IMG/VR virus record: IMGVR_UViG_3300025098_000350
Location: 1 to 20,752 of that record
Length of the DNA: 20,752 nt
Direction: 5' to 3' (one strand)
From: a virus
A program made the position numbers and the translations under genes. Shown here piece by piece: positions 8,476 through 17,966 of the stretch. The stretch's first letter is position 1; every line of letters begins with the position of its first letter. Under the pieces are notes generated by a model, which saw nothing but the letters and a program-made list of their open reading frames with translations, did no database searches and was not told the origin of the DNA.

Positions 8476-8714
8476 AGGAACTTGATGGCCCGCGACTTAC
8501 CGGGCAGTCGTTCTATCCAACCCCGCTCCTCAAGGCATCCTATTGTTCTGGCAATCTGACCGGGGTGCCGCATGACAGTGGCCTTCTCACCGGCCACATA
8601 ACCAGCGCCCATTTCGCGCCAGGTCGGTGCAACGCCATGCACTTTGACGAACCGTTTAAGGAAGTCGTAGAACTCCCGCTGTTCAACGGTCAATGTCACT
8701 TTACCATCAGTCAT
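8472..8714 (-). CDS. LexA-type winged-helix DNA-binding protein without a peptidase domain
   Basis: The 80-residue protein resembles the N-terminal DNA-binding domain of LexA. An LTVEQREFYDFLKRFVKVHG helix is followed by VAPTWREMGAGY in the position of the recognition helix-turn-helix, and GCLEERGWIERLPGKSRAIK matches the wing and end of that domain. The C-terminal self-cleavage domain of LexA is absent, so it cannot be inactivated in the usual RecA-dependent way. It is the last gene of the recombination operon and overlaps recT by eight bases. It may regulate the phage operon or bind host SOS operators; both are inferences. Confidence 0.7.
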   Translation of the reverse strand: MTDGKVTLTVEQREFYDFLKRFVKVHGVAPTWREMGAGYVAGEKATVMRHPGQIARTIGCLEERGWIERLPGKSRAIKFL

Positions 8715-9639
8715 TGGGGGCCTCTTTTTCTTCAGCGCCTAACCCGGCATTGTACTGCAACCGCTTGTCATGCAGTTCTTTGGCAAGGTCTTCATCAAGC
8801 ATAGAAAACGTGTCAGCGTTGGCCTCTTCAAGCGCCTTCATTTTTGTCCGGCGTTCAGCTTCCGGCAGTGACCGAGCGCGGCGAACCTTCAACAGCAAAT
8901 CATTGTACGCATCGGCAAAGTCCATTTGCACAGAGAACGATTGCGTAGGCTTGCCGGGGATGCGAAGGGCGAACCCCTCCACCGGCTCTGGTGGAGCTTG
9001 TGGAGCTTCCACAGCCTCTTGTGGCGGCTCAATTGCAGCCATTGCCCTCTCGGCTATGGTCGGCCCTGACGGCGCTGGTTGGGGCTGTACGGGCACGGTC
9101 TTCATAGGCGGCATGTCTTGGGCTTCTTCTGCCGTGATGATGCCAGCGACAGCATCAGCAAAAGCATCACGCAAAGCAAAGCCTCTGGCACGTAATTGCA
9201 TCATGCGCTCTGGGTATTGCTTCCATGTTTGCCGTGTCAGAAGTCCTGCCCGCTGGGCTTTCGCGTAGGAGTAAATTTGTATTGTTTCGTTTATGTCTCC
9301 ATTCTTGTTTTCACGTTTAACGACACAAGTGGCTTTGTAATCTTGGCCCTCACCTTCGCTTGTCTCTTCAATGCCAAGATATTGAGGGTGGTTCTGGCAT
9401 ATTGCCAACAGACCATCCCCCCATATTGCTGGCCTACCATTCACGAGGCTTATATATTTTAACGCACTAAGCGGCGATATGCCCACCTCTAACCCCCAAT
9501 TTATTGCGACGAGGACGTTCGCGGGCTTGCCTTGGTAGTCTGCCGGTATCATGCCAGACCTTGAATAAAACTCAGCAAACTTAATTGCTTCATCTAGATT
9601 TTGTGGCAACAGGGCGCGGGATACTAATGCGTTACTCAT
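8707..9639 (-). CDS. recT: RecT-family single-strand annealing protein
   Basis: The 310-residue protein shows the RecT core in residues 1 to about 175. This includes NVLVAINWGLEVGISPL (residues 41-57), LVNGRPAIWGDGLLAI (65-80), YSYAKAQRAGLL and WKQYPERMMQLRARGFALRD (139-158). The C-terminal part is a Pro/Gln/Ala-rich linker followed by a charged helix and an acidic end, a variable extension in this family. RecT anneals complementary single strands made by a partner exonuclease, here the YqaJ protein encoded just upstream. AAGGAG eight bases before the ATG lies inside the last codons of that gene, and start and stop overlap by one base. It should serve recombination-dependent replication or repair of phage ends. 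Confidence 0.9.
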   Translation of the reverse strand: MSNALVSRALLPQNLDEAIKFAEFYSRSGMIPADYQGKPANVLVAINWGLEVGISPLSALKYISLVNGRPAIWGDGLLAICQNHPQYLGIEETSEGEGQDYKATCVVKRENKNGDINETIQIYSYAKAQRAGLLTRQTWKQYPERMMQLRARGFALRDAFADAVAGIITAEEAQDMPPMKTVPVQPQPAPSGPTIAERAMAAIEPPQEAVEAPQAPPEPVEGFALRIPGKPTQSFSVQMDFADAYNDLLLKVRRARSLPEAERRTKMKALEEANADTFSMLDEDLAKELHDKRLQYNAGLGAEEKEAPND

Positions 9640-10574
9640 TAATTTAACTCCTTAACAGAAAATTTTAGGGTCTCGGTGACCTCATCGGTCTCAACCATTT
9701 TGCGTTTGGGCTTGCTGATATACTCCGAGTGAATGCGGTAGCCGTCAGCATCAACGTGCGTGATGTTTGACAGGTACATGACATCGACCAGCGCGTTCTT
9801 GTACTCGTCGCGCTCTTTCTCCAACTCGCGCAGCTTGGCACGGGCAAGGGTTACCTCTGCGTTCGCCTCAACATAGCCTTGGGCGGCACCTGAGATGTCG
9901 GCGTTCGTTTCCCAGCCATCAGGATAAGACACGGCAACAACGTCAGCGTCAGGGTCAGGGTCCGGCGGGTAGTGACTGTCAGTATCAACTAGGTTCCAGA
10001 ACTCATCGTATGCCTCAAGCATAATTCCAATGAGATTGGCCGACCGCTCAACCGGGTACAAATGCAAATTAAAGTTCTGGTCAAAACAACCAATCATTCC
10101 CCAGTTGATGTCACTACAGTGCATTTGATGAAGCACTTGAAATATCCACTCAGGTTTTGGCTTGTCGTGATGGTATCGGTCGGTCTTAATCTCAACCACC
10201 CCGGTGCCGCTCATAACAATATCTTTGCCCTCAAGATTTTTCAGCGTTAGTGGGTCAGCCAGCTTGACAATTCGGTCAATAGAACTCGCCGCCCTAGCCT
10301 TCTGGTACGGCTCAGTTGGTTCCCACATTTGACACGGTTTGACGCACAGTTCGTTAATCCAAAACTCAACCATGTTAGCCACCGCTGGCTCTAAAAAAAT
10401 GCCGCGAATAAGTGCCCAACTTTTTAAGTCAGGCTCAATAGTCTCGACCCCAGCCTTGGCCAGTTTGTGCTTTTCCAAAATGTCATGCCGGTTCTGGAAT
10501 GCGGTTTTGCCTAGAACGATTGCCCCTGCCTCGGAGGAACCAATCTCAAATCCTGTTTTGGTTAGCTTTGGCAT
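9639..10574 (-). CDS. YqaJ-type phage exonuclease
   Basis: This 311-residue protein has the nuclease motifs of the YqaJ viral recombinase family, related to lambda exonuclease: SSEAGAIVLG near residue 13, GIFLEP with Glu62, SSIDRIV with Asp100, GVVEIKTD with Glu128 and Lys130, and EWIFQVLHQMH with Gln146. The C-terminal third contains a charged helix (LRELEKERDEYKNALVD) often seen in these proteins. It should degrade one strand of linear DNA from the end and hand single strands to RecT. No frameshift is visible and the catalytic residues are intact. The upstream 81-residue gene ends on its start codon (TGATG), so translation is likely coupled; no strong ribosome binding site is present. Confidence 0.9.
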   Translation of the reverse strand: MPKLTKTGFEIGSSEAGAIVLGKTAFQNRHDILEKHKLAKAGVETIEPDLKSWALIRGIFLEPAVANMVEFWINELCVKPCQMWEPTEPYQKARAASSIDRIVKLADPLTLKNLEGKDIVMSGTGVVEIKTDRYHHDKPKPEWIFQVLHQMHCSDINWGMIGCFDQNFNLHLYPVERSANLIGIMLEAYDEFWNLVDTDSHYPPDPDPDADVVAVSYPDGWETNADISGAAQGYVEANAEVTLARAKLRELEKERDEYKNALVDVMYLSNITHVDADGYRIHSEYISKPKRKMVETDEVTETLKFSVKELN

Positions 10575-10819
10575 CAGAACGGCCCCCCGTTGGCAGCGGT
10601 GCAGACATCAGACAGCGCACAGCCAATCCAAGACGAGGCCATCAGGCCCACGCAGAACAGCGTGAAGCTGACACCGTCTAATATCAGGGATAAGTTGGAA
10701 CTTGCTCGACTAACCTCTTGACCCTGCACGACAGGGTCAGTTGGAACTTGTGAAGATAAACTACTGTTATCATTACACTCAGGCAGTCTCGTACGGGCTG
10801 CCACTTTACAATTACTCAT
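10574..10819 (-). CDS. 81-residue protein with one membrane segment
   Basis: The ATG at 10819 is preceded by AAAGGA seven bases upstream, so this start is preferred to a much longer frame that would run into the integrase gene. The first 45 residues are polar, and a hydrophobic segment follows (residues 49-68, GVSFTLFCVGLMASSWIGCA). Four cysteines are present. It is the first gene of the exonuclease-recombinase set and overlaps the exonuclease start by one base. Its coding sequence contains two copies of an 11-base repeat and a hairpin, so this stretch may carry DNA signals as well as a protein. Function is unknown. Confidence 0.6.
   Translation of the reverse strand: MSNCKVAARTRLPECNDNSSLSSQVPTDPVVQGQEVSRASSNLSLILDGVSFTLFCVGLMASSWIGCALSDVCTAANGGPF
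10694..10750. repeat. direct repeats flanking a perfect inverted repeat; possible attachment or control region
   Basis: GTTGGAACTTG occurs at 10694-10704 and again at 10740-10750. Between them is a perfect 8-base inverted repeat, TGACCCTG (10719-10726) and CAGGGTCA (10732-10739), with a 5-base loop. The two direct repeats fall in different codon phases of the 81-residue gene (read as Ser-Ser-Asn in one and Gln-Val-Pro-Thr in the other), so the protein does not explain them. The place, beyond the 3' end of int, matches that of attP in lambda. Arm-type integrase sites or an operator are the likely meanings. Confidence 0.45.
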
Positions 10820-10880: not shown

Positions 10881-11966
10881 TTAATTAGAGTTGGAAGTTC
10901 CAACCCCTGTATGCTCACTATTTGATATTGATAACGCCCTCCTTTTGTCAAACATTTTAATATAGCGACTCGCCTCAACCAGCGTTGAGTGACCCAACCA
11001 GGACATAATGGCTGTGGCTGACCCGTTGTTGGCAGCAATCTCCATGTCTCGGCTTTTTCTCAGGCCGTGCGCTGTCTTGCTTACACCCGCCGCCGCTGCC
11101 TGTCGGCTAAACCATGACGATGCAGCTTTGACCGACCGGCTTTTTATTTGCCCGCGATTGTTGACCCCGCCGGTGACAATGTAGGTCATGTGCTTGTCGG
11201 GTTGCGCCTCAATTGCTTTGTGCAATAGGTCGAGGTCGCGCTTAAACGATTGTGCAAAGTGTGGCAGTTCTCGGTCGAACGGTATCTCAACCAAGGTGCC
11301 TGTCTTTGACCGGCGGTATGACAGCCAGCCACCGGGGCGTATGCAGCCTGGGCCAAGCCTTACGGCGTCCACCATGCTTGCGCCGGTCCAGTACAACAAC
11401 TCAAACGCCATGCGTGGGTGCGTGTTCAGCGCATGATGATTGCGGAACATCTCAACGTCATTGTGGTCCCACGGTATGTGTCCATCAGACTTTACAACAG
11501 GCGCACGGACCATGTCCTTGCTGGGGTCTATCTTCAGCGCATCGATGTGCATGAGATATTTGCAGAACCCGCGCCACATTTTAAGCTGAGTGTGCTGCGC
11601 GTGGCCGTGATAGTTTTTTAAATCAGCGCGGATGACGTCCGGCGTCAGTGCTTTCTCAGAACCAGCGGTCTCTCTAATACGTTCTAGGGCACGGCGTCTA
11701 ACGCCTTGGGTCAGCGGGGCCATAGTGGTAAAGTGCGAACTGGCGATATACTTACTGACGGCACTGGCCAAGCTGCCCTTGATGATTGGCCGTACAGGCT
11801 CGACGCCCGCCGCCTCGGTATATGCTTTAAGGAACTCAACAGACCCCATAGTAGCGTCAGGCATCGGGATGCCCTTCTGCCCTACAGGCCTGTAATACCA
11901 GCGCGGGTTACCTGACTTGTATTCGCCACTGCGATTTAAATGTTTAAGATGTACTCGCTTTTGCAC
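10881..11966 (-). CDS. int: phage integrase, tyrosine recombinase
   Basis: The 361-residue protein has an N-terminal arm-binding and core-binding region followed by a tyrosine recombinase catalytic domain. Visible catalytic residues are Lys221 (YRRSKTG), His300 and Arg303 (HGLR), His326 (LGHS) and the nucleophile Tyr335 (ASRYIK). The first catalytic arginine, normally in a TGxR motif, is not there: the matching stretch is WTGASMVDAVRLG with Ser197 in its place. The N-terminus, with RSGEYKSGNPRWYYRPVGQKG, resembles alphaproteobacterial prophage integrases. The start is a GTG overlapping the excisionase gene by 31 bases. The enzyme should integrate the genome at a bacterial att site and, with Xis, excise it. 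Confidence 0.9.
   Translation of the reverse strand: MQKRVHLKHLNRSGEYKSGNPRWYYRPVGQKGIPMPDATMGSVEFLKAYTEAAGVEPVRPIIKGSLASAVSKYIASSHFTTMAPLTQGVRRRALERIRETAGSEKALTPDVIRADLKNYHGHAQHTQLKMWRGFCKYLMHIDALKIDPSKDMVRAPVVKSDGHIPWDHNDVEMFRNHHALNTHPRMAFELLYWTGASMVDAVRLGPGCIRPGGWLSYRRSKTGTLVEIPFDRELPHFAQSFKRDLDLLHKAIEAQPDKHMTYIVTGGVNNRGQIKSRSVKAASSWFSRQAAAAGVSKTAHGLRKSRDMEIAANNGSATAIMSWLGHSTLVEASRYIKMFDKRRALSISNSEHTGVGTSNSN
10890..10904. repeat. perfect palindrome in the end of the integrase gene, related to the nearby repeats
   Basis: GTTGGAAGTTCCAAC is a perfect palindrome with 7-base arms around one central base, seven bases before the integrase stop on the minus strand. Each arm shares the TTGGAA core with the direct repeats at 10694 and 10740, and with a further TTGGAACTT at 12481-12489 at the end of the serine recombinase gene. 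An imperfect copy, CTTGGAAGTTTC, lies at 10870-10881. It is a candidate binding site for Int, Xis or a dimeric regulator. Confidence 0.45.
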
Positions 11967-12473: not shown

Positions 12474-13268
12474 TTACTTATTGGAACTTATGACCCCAGC
12501 TTTGATGAGGCGTTTGACATAGTTGCGGGTGCTGCTTGCGTGCCATTGCGGGTTCTCTAGCATGTCAGGGTCAGCCGCTTTACGTGGCGTCAAGATACCT
12601 ATTTTGTTGAGTTCTGCGGCCATCTCGCGGTAGGACATGCCCTGCTTTACGAATGCGATAAACAGGTTCTCAAGCTGCGTTGCATAGACCAAGGCTTTCT
12701 TGGCATTGGCGGCGTTACCGGCCAGCGATGCTTCTGTTGTATCGGTCGCGCCCAGCTTGGATATTGTGCGGCCAGCCTTGGTGACATAGCTACCCTTCTC
12801 GGCAATCTCGGCTTGGATGCGGGCCAGTGACATTTTGGTACGTGCCTTGATGTCGGTACGTTCCATGTCAGCAACAGCGGCCAACAAGCCGACCGTCTTG
12901 TGGTCTAGCAATGGATTATCGACAGCAACAAACTGCACCTTGCCGGTGCTGACTTGCTGGTCAAGGAAGCGTAAGCCTTCCCATGTCTTACGTGACAAGC
13001 GGCTAACAGAGTACACCACCATAGTCGCACCGTGCTTGCGGGCGTAGTTGATGCAGTCCTGCAAGCCTTTGCGGTTATGCCACGGCGTACCGGCAGAGCA
13101 TTCGTCCTCAAACCATTCGACCGTGAAGTCACCGCCATTGAGGTAAGCCTTGATTGCGGCCCGCTGGTTCTCATTGTCCTGCTTGTCAGTAGACACACGC
13201 ACATAGGCCGCGAACTTGCCAGTGTGCATGGCACCGTGGTCAGGTCTGGTTTGGATAAGGCCGGTCAT
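12474..13268 (-). CDS. serine recombinase of the resolvase/invertase family
   Basis: The 264-residue protein starts its catalytic domain with AAYVRVSTDKQDNENQ, which supplies the nucleophile Ser26 and Arg24. SVSRLSRKTWEGLRFLD supplies the paired arginines at residues 90 and 93. The E-helix follows with a LLAAVADMERTDIKARTK pattern. The C-terminal part contains a helix-turn-helix (MSYREMAAELNKIGILTPRK) and ends in a basic helix. The length suits a small resolvase or invertase rather than a large serine integrase. GGGAGAG lies four bases before the ATG. A temperate phage that already has a tyrosine integrase would not need it for integration; dimer resolution, DNA inversion or a past insertion are possible roles. 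Confidence 0.88.
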   Translation of the reverse strand: MTGLIQTRPDHGAMHTGKFAAYVRVSTDKQDNENQRAAIKAYLNGGDFTVEWFEDECSAGTPWHNRKGLQDCINYARKHGATMVVYSVSRLSRKTWEGLRFLDQQVSTGKVQFVAVDNPLLDHKTVGLLAAVADMERTDIKARTKMSLARIQAEIAEKGSYVTKAGRTISKLGATDTTEASLAGNAANAKKALVYATQLENLFIAFVKQGMSYREMAAELNKIGILTPRKAADPDMLENPQWHASSTRNYVKRLIKAGVISSNK

Positions 13269-16507: not shown

Positions 16508-16972
16508 ATGTTTCGTTACCGTTTTTCTTTGTTGTACATTTTGTCGGTTGTGTTGGTGAACATTGGTTTTGTGTATGTGCCTTTGGTCCCGGTTGGCGGC
16601 GAGATGTTTCCCCCGATGAGTTTGGTTGTTGGTGTTGTATTTATTTTGCGGGATTATTCTCAGCAAGAGATTGGGCATCATGTATTGGCTGCTATGAGCA
16701 TTGGTGCGGCGTTGAGTTATTTGATGGCTGACCCGTATGTTGCTTTGGCTAGTTTGGTTGCTTTTTTAATTTCAGAGCTGGTGGATTGGTATGTTTATAC
16801 GTTCACTGGTCGGCCATTGGGTCAGCGCATTTTGCTTTCGTCGGCGATTAGCACACCGATAGACAGCGCGGTATTCCTTGAGATGATTAATCATTTTAGT
16901 TGGTTTGGCTTTGCGTTGATGACCGCGGCAAAGATGTTGGCGGCGGGTGCGATTTGGTGGAGGTTGCGGTGA
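16508..16972 (+). CDS. VUT family transporter (YhhQ-like), probable 7-deazaguanine precursor uptake
   Basis: The 154-residue protein is almost wholly hydrophobic, with about five membrane helices. It shows the signature of the VUT/YhhQ family: VVGVVFILRDYSQQEIGHHV, then AALSYLMADPYVALASLVAF and ISELVDWYVYTFTGRPLGQR, then ILLSSAISTPIDSAVF. YhhQ imports queuosine precursors such as preQ0 and preQ1 across the inner membrane. The protein is shorter than the E. coli one (about 220 residues), as I recall for phage versions. AAGGAAG six bases before the ATG supports the start. Its stop overlaps the GTG of the DpdA-like gene (GTGA), so the two should be made together. Transport of a 7-deazaguanine base for DNA modification is inferred from that pairing. 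Confidence 0.85.
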   Translation: MFRYRFSLLYILSVVLVNIGFVYVPLVPVGGEMFPPMSLVVGVVFILRDYSQQEIGHHVLAAMSIGAALSYLMADPYVALASLVAFLISELVDWYVYTFTGRPLGQRILLSSAISTPIDSAVFLEMINHFSWFGFALMTAAKMLAAGAIWWRLR

Positions 16973-17673
16973 TACATTATCATGGCACTCCTATTACTCC
17001 GGTTGCTGAGTTGTTGACGATGGCGGGTTGTCATTTCTGCGTATCTCATATGCGCCCTGACGATGTTCGGAGGTGCCATTCGATTGGCCAGAGTGTGATG
17101 TTGGACAATGGTGCTTTTAGCGCGTGGCGCAGTGGCAAGTCTGTTGATTGGTCTGGTTACTATGATTGGTGTGATGAGTGGTTTGCTTATCCAACGACCT
17201 GGGCGGTTGTGCCTGATGTGATTGATGAGGGCAGTCAGGCCCAAGATGCTTTATTGCGAGATTGGCCTCACGGTCATCGTGGCGCTCCGGTATGGCATAT
17301 GGACGAGCCTCTTAGCCGTTTGTTGGGATTGTGTGAGGATTGGCCGCGTGTCTGTGTGGGCAGCACGGCTGAGTATGCGACTGTATTATCTCCGGCTTGG
17401 TGTGGTCGCATTGATGAGATGTTTGACCAGCTTGCTGTGACGTTTGGCCGGATGCCTTGGCTGCACATGTTGCGGGGTATGCAATTGAGCGGGCGGGGTT
17501 GGCCTTTTGCGAGTGTGGATAGCACTGACGTTGCCCAGAACCATCATTTGAAACATCGGTCGGCGAGGAAGATGGCTGACCGCTGGGACGCTATGCAAGT
17601 GCCTGGTCATTGGCGTGTGCGTAGCAACGAGCAATATAATTTTAATCAGATGCTAGAAAGGAAAATAGCATGA
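16969..17673 (+). CDS. dpdA: DpdA-like DNA guanine transglycosylase (7-deazaguanine insertion into DNA)
   Basis: From the GTG at 16969 the product has 234 residues. GGAGG five bases upstream and the GTGA overlap with the transporter fix this start. The sequence resembles phage DpdA proteins, DNA relatives of tRNA-guanine transglycosylase: SVMLDNGAFSAWRSGK with Asp46 near the base-binding site, WAVVPDVIDEG with Asp83, APVWHMDEPLSRLL, RVCVGSTAEY, PWLHMLRGM, and FASVDSTDVAQNH with Asp184. By analogy with TGT, Asp46 and Asp184 are the likely base and nucleophile; this is inferred. DpdA enzymes exchange guanine in DNA for preQ0 or a derivative, which protects against restriction. No preQ0 synthesis gene is in this window, so the base may come from outside or from the host. 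The gene symbol names the family. Confidence 0.8.
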   Translation: MIHYHGTPITPVAELLTMAGCHFCVSHMRPDDVRRCHSIGQSVMLDNGAFSAWRSGKSVDWSGYYDWCDEWFAYPTTWAVVPDVIDEGSQAQDALLRDWPHGHRGAPVWHMDEPLSRLLGLCEDWPRVCVGSTAEYATVLSPAWCGRIDEMFDQLAVTFGRMPWLHMLRGMQLSGRGWPFASVDSTDVAQNHHLKHRSARKMADRWDAMQVPGHWRVRSNEQYNFNQMLERKIA

Positions 17674-17966
17674 GTAAGCGATACCGAGTTGTGCAGGGCA
17701 AGGAAATCCCCGGTCGAGACAAGCCGTTGTGGCTGAGGTTGGGCACTGCGTTTGAGAAAGACGGCAAGCCTCTGAGCATAAAGTTGGATGTGTTGCCATT
17801 GCCAAACAAGGACGGCGATGTGTGGTTGCGTTTGTTTGAGGACGATGGTCAGGGCGCTGGAGCGGCTGCGAATGCGGGTGGTGGAGCCACTGGTGCGTTT
17901 TCTGCGCCGATTGGTGAGGCTGCTGCTGCGCCACGCGACGATTTAAACGACTCCATACCGTTCTGA
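17670..17966 (+). CDS. small protein with SSB-like C-terminal tip
   Basis: Residues 1-58 of this 98-residue protein are a compact beta-rich part (YRVVQGKEIPGRDKPLWLRL, then GTAFEKDGKPLSIKLDVLPL). A linker rich in Gly and Ala follows, and then the end DDLNDSIPF. The linker and acidic tip with final Ile-Pro-Phe closely resemble those of single-stranded DNA-binding protein, whose tip recruits host repair and replication proteins. The N-terminal part is too short for a typical SSB OB-fold, so it may be a reduced or unrelated domain. AAAGGAAA lies before the ATG, which overlaps the DpdA stop (ATGA). It may connect phage DNA to host enzymes. Confidence 0.62.
   Translation: MSKRYRVVQGKEIPGRDKPLWLRLGTAFEKDGKPLSIKLDVLPLPNKDGDVWLRLFEDDGQGAGAAANAGGGATGAFSAPIGEAAAAPRDDLNDSIPF

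Follow-up and report, generated by a model that had tools for sequence, protein, structure and literature searches.

A recurrent VUT–DpdA gene pair in phages, predicted to salvage a 7-deazaguanine base and insert it into DNA

Among the closest described counterparts of the locus reported here are phage systems built around the transglycosylase DpdA. DNA of the Escherichia phage CAjan contains dPreQ0, for which the CAjan DpdA is required (PMC6884629), and in EC151 and its relatives a preQ0 transporter accompanies the complete synthesis pathway (PMC8310023). DNA of the Pantoea phage MED16 contains dADG, with about 0.13% of G modified, and is still cut by most of the enzymes tested (PMC8306585), a low modification with little restriction resistance; the dpdA-only phage Orion had none (PMC8306585, PMC6884629). 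In the study by Hutinet et al. (2019), the largest group of DpdA phages, which have no synthesis genes, was left without a predicted modification or base source; uptake was suggested as one possible source of the base for DpdA singletons, and phage homologs of YhhQ were noted, with no correlation with any phage group (PMC6884629).

The window analyzed here is a 20.7-kb virus fragment (20,752 nt), the right end of which lies inside a terminase gene. RecT- and YqaJ-type recombination genes are present, together with a tyrosine integrase (10881–11966, minus strand) and a serine recombinase (12474–13268, minus strand), which fit a temperate phage. The minus-strand integrase and recombinase thus lie close together in one phage (10881–13268). 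On the plus strand, a VUT/YhhQ-family membrane protein of 154 aa is encoded from an ATG start at 16508–16972, followed at 16969–17673 by a compact DpdA/TGT-like transglycosylase of 234 aa with a GTG start. The two genes are coupled by a GTGA stop-start overlap (16969–16972, plus strand), the TGA stop of the VUT ORF sitting within the GTGA that opens the dpdA ORF, and a GGAGG Shine-Dalgarno-type site (16959–16963, plus strand) is located 5 nt ahead of the dpdA start. The preliminary description of this DNA had reported the overlap and the GGAGG, and was correct in every detail checked; its statement that the window contains no preQ0 synthesis gene was likewise borne out, no homologs of QueC, QueD, QueE or FolE being found within the 20.7 kb. 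Nothing in the window was matched by Rfam or by a tRNA scan.

The 154-aa protein passes the Vut_1 family threshold (PF02592; 32.5 bits, cut-off 27.2) and matches phrog_4899 (E 2.9e-33), in agreement with the VUT/YhhQ-type transporter originally proposed. It misses the equivalog cut-off of the queuosine precursor transporter model TIGR00697 (29.1 against 50.95 bits), and is therefore assigned to the PF02592 family, with no claim to the equivalog. The protein is shorter than YhhQ (154 vs 221 aa), and a simple hydropathy scan gives no clear count of its TM segments, six being the number expected for QPTR/YhhQ (COG1738). In a VUT tree, it groups with the VUT proteins of CAjan, RHEph06 and Erebus (support 100/100). 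It is probably an importer whose predicted substrate is preQ0 or a related 7-deazaguanine.

The 234-aa protein matches phrog_887, annotated as ‘queuine tRNA-ribosyltransferase’ (E 9.2e-45). Pfam and NCBIfam scans of the protein gave no family match, Pfam scans of 48 homologs gave no convincing family, and the matches returned by PDB sequence searches were discarded as spurious. An AF2 model computed from an alignment of 47 homologs (pLDDT 94.1) is a TGT-family barrel, and not an unrelated fold, which the preliminary description had named as a refuting outcome. In a Foldseek comparison with the PDB, the sole matches under E 0.001 were chains of Cap10, a TGT-family enzyme (PMC11996544), and the named matches in BFVD were queuine tRNA-ribosyltransferases (best named E 1.2e-8). 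Comparison by hhalign of the window DpdA profile with the DpdA of CAjan, 9g and relatives gave a probability of 95.5% and a score of 62.3, against at most 7.5% and 27.2 in 100 column shuffles; the comparison with the single E. coli TGT sequence (0.15%) is uninformative. The DpdA alignment pairs Asp46 (codon 17104–17106, plus strand), in LDNGAFSAW, with the DpdA motif DSGAFSA, and Asp184 (codon 17518–17520, plus strand), in SVDSTD, with the CDSSS motif of CAjan DpdA. Both residues are invariant in 48 homologs, Asp46 being the counterpart of the Asp in the DpdA/TGT motif DSGAFS/DSGGFQ, and Asp184 a candidate nucleophile. Over about 190 residues, the enzyme shares 40% identity and the two Asp motifs with the DpdA of MED16, the nearest relative with studied DNA chemistry. 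Unlike E. coli TGT, the 234-aa protein lacks the CxCxxC zinc motif found in the C-terminal region of tRNA TGT. The DpdA/TGT-like identity first put forward is thus upheld by the TGT-family model, the profile match to a verified DpdA and the catalytic-type Asp motifs, and “compact phage DpdA” is the most fitting name for the protein, its activity on DNA being predicted.

The pairing of VUT with DpdA recurs across viruses. In the 80 viral DpdA loci closest to the window, the partner adjoining DpdA is VUT in 47, a QueD-like gene in 13 and neither in 18, the remaining 2 being cut off; in none of the 80 do VUT and a QueD-like gene both lie beside DpdA. When loci were instead seeded with VUT, DpdA lay immediately downstream, or was separated from VUT by one small gene, in all 16 with enough DNA, two of these DpdA genes being broken. 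A DpdA tree of 99 representatives, obtained by a short search and weak at many of its forks, requires at least 16 gains or losses of VUT and at least 7 switches of gene order among the VUT carriers. Two VUT lineages are paired with DpdA, with the VUT gene on either side. The CAjan-lineage VUT lies upstream of DpdA in the window and in the loci most closely related to it (L007, L015 and L090, the VUT of the last being 83% identical to that of the window); in the DpdA sisters L003, L012, L016 and L017, VUT lies downstream, and for the three of these included in the VUT tree (L003, L012 and L016) it belongs to the other VUT lineage. Unless VUT and DpdA share a function, it is difficult to account for such a non-orthologous replacement on the other side of DpdA, and chance adjacency is ruled out by the VUT-seeded loci and the repeated changes in the tree: the pairing is selected. 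Structure and profile comparison, together with the recurring adjacency and the host data given below, support the functional link between the two proteins suggested in the preliminary description. Seeding with the CAjan DpdA yielded only 3 viral loci, and VUT is present in only 5 of 80 loci seeded with the MED16 DpdA. At two loci (L106:3644–3932 and L107:6372–6660), the DpdA gene that follows VUT consists of two short open frames and is apparently broken. One viral contig (L038) contains two DpdA-like genes in tandem (8550–9239 and 9980–10678).

The records of relatives were searched for QueC, PTPS and FolE, the absence of QueC being taken as sufficient, with CAjan as a positive control that was positive each time. 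None of the three was found above cut-off in 20 virus records containing VUT and DpdA, among which are Pam5 and RHph_N3_2, both complete phages. A host comparison built on DpdA homologs in bacterial genomes covered 6 hosts with VUT and 25 without. Full-length QueC is absent from 4 of the 6 VUT+ hosts (L114, L116, L124 and L126) and from 1 of the 25 VUT− hosts (L123; p 0.0022), and QueF is absent from 5 of 6 and 1 of 25 (L123), respectively (p 0.0002), these being one-sided Fisher tests on a small sample that includes MAGs, with relatedness ignored. Within Rhizobiales alone, the absence holds for 3 of 4 VUT+ and 0 of 7 VUT− hosts (p 0.024). None of the five genomes in the genus of L114 has a full-length QueC, and the L114 case is thus not an assembly gap. 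QueC is present in the other two VUT+ hosts, and some VUT+ hosts contain a further VUT gene; the L124 and L126 hosts have one VUT match each, which is probably the phage copy. Among 385 genomes searched within a single class, the seed genome alone contained DpdA. Among the few hosts checked, the VUT–DpdA pair tends to occur in those unable to make the base.

Some loci contain further genes adjoining DpdA. A protein of about 80 aa (phrog_37496, function not annotated) is encoded next to DpdA in L090–L095, L098, L100, L102–L105 and others, and sits between VUT and DpdA in L090 and most of the VUT-seeded loci; examples are found at L090:4157–4402, L104:6473–6727, L032:9771–10001 and about 20 other loci. 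Its invariant residues are C12, P13, Y21, E34, E47 and H67, including a conserved CP motif, and its profile matches QueF at 66.8%, against at most 3.4% in shuffles. The model (pLDDT 93.8) has the fold of QueF-Like (archaeosine synthase), all 13 PDB matches under E 0.001 being QueF-Like chains, including the covalent thioimide form. QueF-L acts on the nitrile of preQ0, and the base used by the cassette is hence most likely preQ0; judging from the model, the small protein may be a minimal nitrile-converting partner. The gene is absent from the window, for which the predicted product in DNA is therefore dPreQ0 or, as in phage MED16, dADG. At other loci lacking VUT (L042, L046, L049, L050, L057–L061, L064, L073, L075, L079 and L085), DpdA has a compact QueD-like (PTPS) gene for a neighbor, most copies being without the usual catalytic Cys before HGH, with the His residues kept. 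The QueD-like and QueF-L-like partners point to preQ0 chemistry. Nucleoside 2-deoxyribosyltransferase-like proteins (PF05014) overlap or adjoin DpdA at L044:10630–11061, L051:10624–11058, L070:3259–3711 and L216:3621–4004.

In the window, dpdA is followed by a gene for a 98-aa protein (17670–17966, plus strand), which overlaps it by ATGA and encodes an SSB-like C-terminal tip (DDLNDSIPF). Homologs likewise terminate in [ILV]P[FI], the tip being acidic in almost every one, and the family is related to phrog_18187 and has no Pfam family. They occur at varied phage genome positions (in L002, L016, L017, L034, L044, L060, L100 and L101). The proposal that this protein links the enzyme to replicating DNA found no support, and a role as a dedicated DpdA partner was rejected, since just 5 of the 42 representative loci with VUT and DpdA have it nearby; it may be replication-associated.

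The computed enzyme family and fold, the transporter family, the gene overlap, the repeated independent pairing, the absence of preQ0 synthesis genes from relatives and the enrichment in hosts lacking QueC or QueF are best accommodated by a minimal salvage-and-insert cassette, which we consider a likely reading. VUT would take up preQ0, or a closely related 7-deazaguanine, from the surroundings of the cell. The compact DpdA, judging from its fold and catalytic motifs, would then put the imported base in place of guanine in DNA (probably that of the phage as it replicates), through a TGT-type covalent mechanism involving Asp46 and Asp184. From transport to base identity, DNA target and benefit, the steps of this scheme are ones that we infer, the presumed benefit being protection of the phage DNA. 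The preliminary description went further and proposed escape from restriction, which appears too optimistic: given the low level of modification in MED16 and the cutting of its DNA by most enzymes (PMC8306585), strong restriction escape by this phage is doubtful.

Action on tRNA would be an alternative use of the same two proteins, in which a queuosine precursor is imported and host or phage tRNA is modified for better translation by what would be a cut-down TGT. The TGT family fold is compatible with such a role, YhhQ normally serves queuosine in tRNA (PMC5372724), and several VUT+ hosts are unable to make preQ0, so that a phage could supply them with queuosine. However, the profile similarity of the enzyme is to DNA-acting DpdA rather than to E. 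coli TGT (the latter as a single sequence), the zinc motif of tRNA TGT is missing, and the related phage MED16 has modified DNA (PMC8306585), making a tRNA target unlikely. A Cap10-like activity against deazaguanine-based immunity, binding or removing 7-deazaguanine on a host defense protein while the transporter alters the free-base pool, is suggested by the solved structure that matches best, Cap10 of type IV CBASS. Yet a profile search of PDB sequences with the window DpdA did not return Cap10 (9ntn), the sequence and profile similarity being to DpdA; no DpdA was seen among the PDB matches, and Cap10 may therefore rank first for want of a closer structure. With dADG present in the DNA of MED16, whose DpdA is 40% identical, we regard an anti-immunity function as very improbable.

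A different objection concerns the transporter, which might be an unrelated passenger or import another substrate (queuine or a vitamin), with DpdA using host-made preQ0 and the adjacency having no function. VUT substrate specificity differs among subfamilies (PMC5372724, PMC11130926), many DpdA phages have no VUT, and Hutinet et al. found phage YhhQ to be uncorrelated with any phage group (PMC6884629). Repeated independent adjacency, reversal of gene order and the use of a second VUT lineage argue against a passenger, as does the association of VUT with hosts lacking preQ0 synthesis, and this reading too has little likelihood. Salvage of the base by VUT and its insertion into DNA by DpdA thus remains the preferred account.

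A broader generalization, which we offer tentatively as possible rather than probable, is that compact-DpdA phages complete the host 7-deazaguanine pathway with a swappable plug-in: VUT where the host lacks preQ0, and otherwise the QueD-like or the ~80-aa QueF-Like protein. If so, a phage could modify its DNA whatever the metabolism of its host, and the plug-in gene would report the gap in the host and the final base. For part of the DpdA singletons, the VUT–DpdA pair, the QueC-lacking hosts and the QueF-L-like third gene offer a testable answer, namely salvage of the base, in which case a virus would encode the importer that supplies its DNA-modifying enzyme. The phages RHph_N3_2 and Pam5, which carry the VUT–DpdA pair, are worth mass spectrometry.

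Phage DpdA singletons and phage YhhQ homologs are already known. In the literature searched, no paper reported VUT and DpdA as a recurrent two-gene unit, the association of that unit with hosts, or its compact QueF-L partner; other papers could contain such reports. The singletons (the third group of Hutinet et al. 2019) resemble the window in having DpdA without synthesis genes, but a VUT–DpdA unit was not described for them (PMC6884629). CAjan and other Seuratvirus/EC151 clusters have the same VUT lineage plus a DpdA (PMC6884629, PMC8310023); unlike the window, they encode full FolE-QueD-QueE-QueC synthesis, and their 306-aa DpdA is beside a polymerase clamp gene, with VUT not adjacent. MED16 (DpdA/TGT_1 cluster; PMC8306585) shares the compact DpdA family and the lack of preQ0 genes, but has no VUT gene. 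Cap10 (PDB 9ntn) resembles the window enzyme in its TGT family structure, but is remodeled to bind a deazaguanylated protein N-terminus (PMC11996544) and has no sequence match to it. Bacterial dpd islands combine dpdA with a preQ0 transporter (YhhQ) in about 9% of cases, as found by GATOR-GC (PMC11888242); in contrast to the two-gene phage unit, they contain dpdB, often dpdC and usually restriction genes (PMC11888242). Against this background, what looks new is the recurring salvage cassette, along with the exchangeable partner genes.
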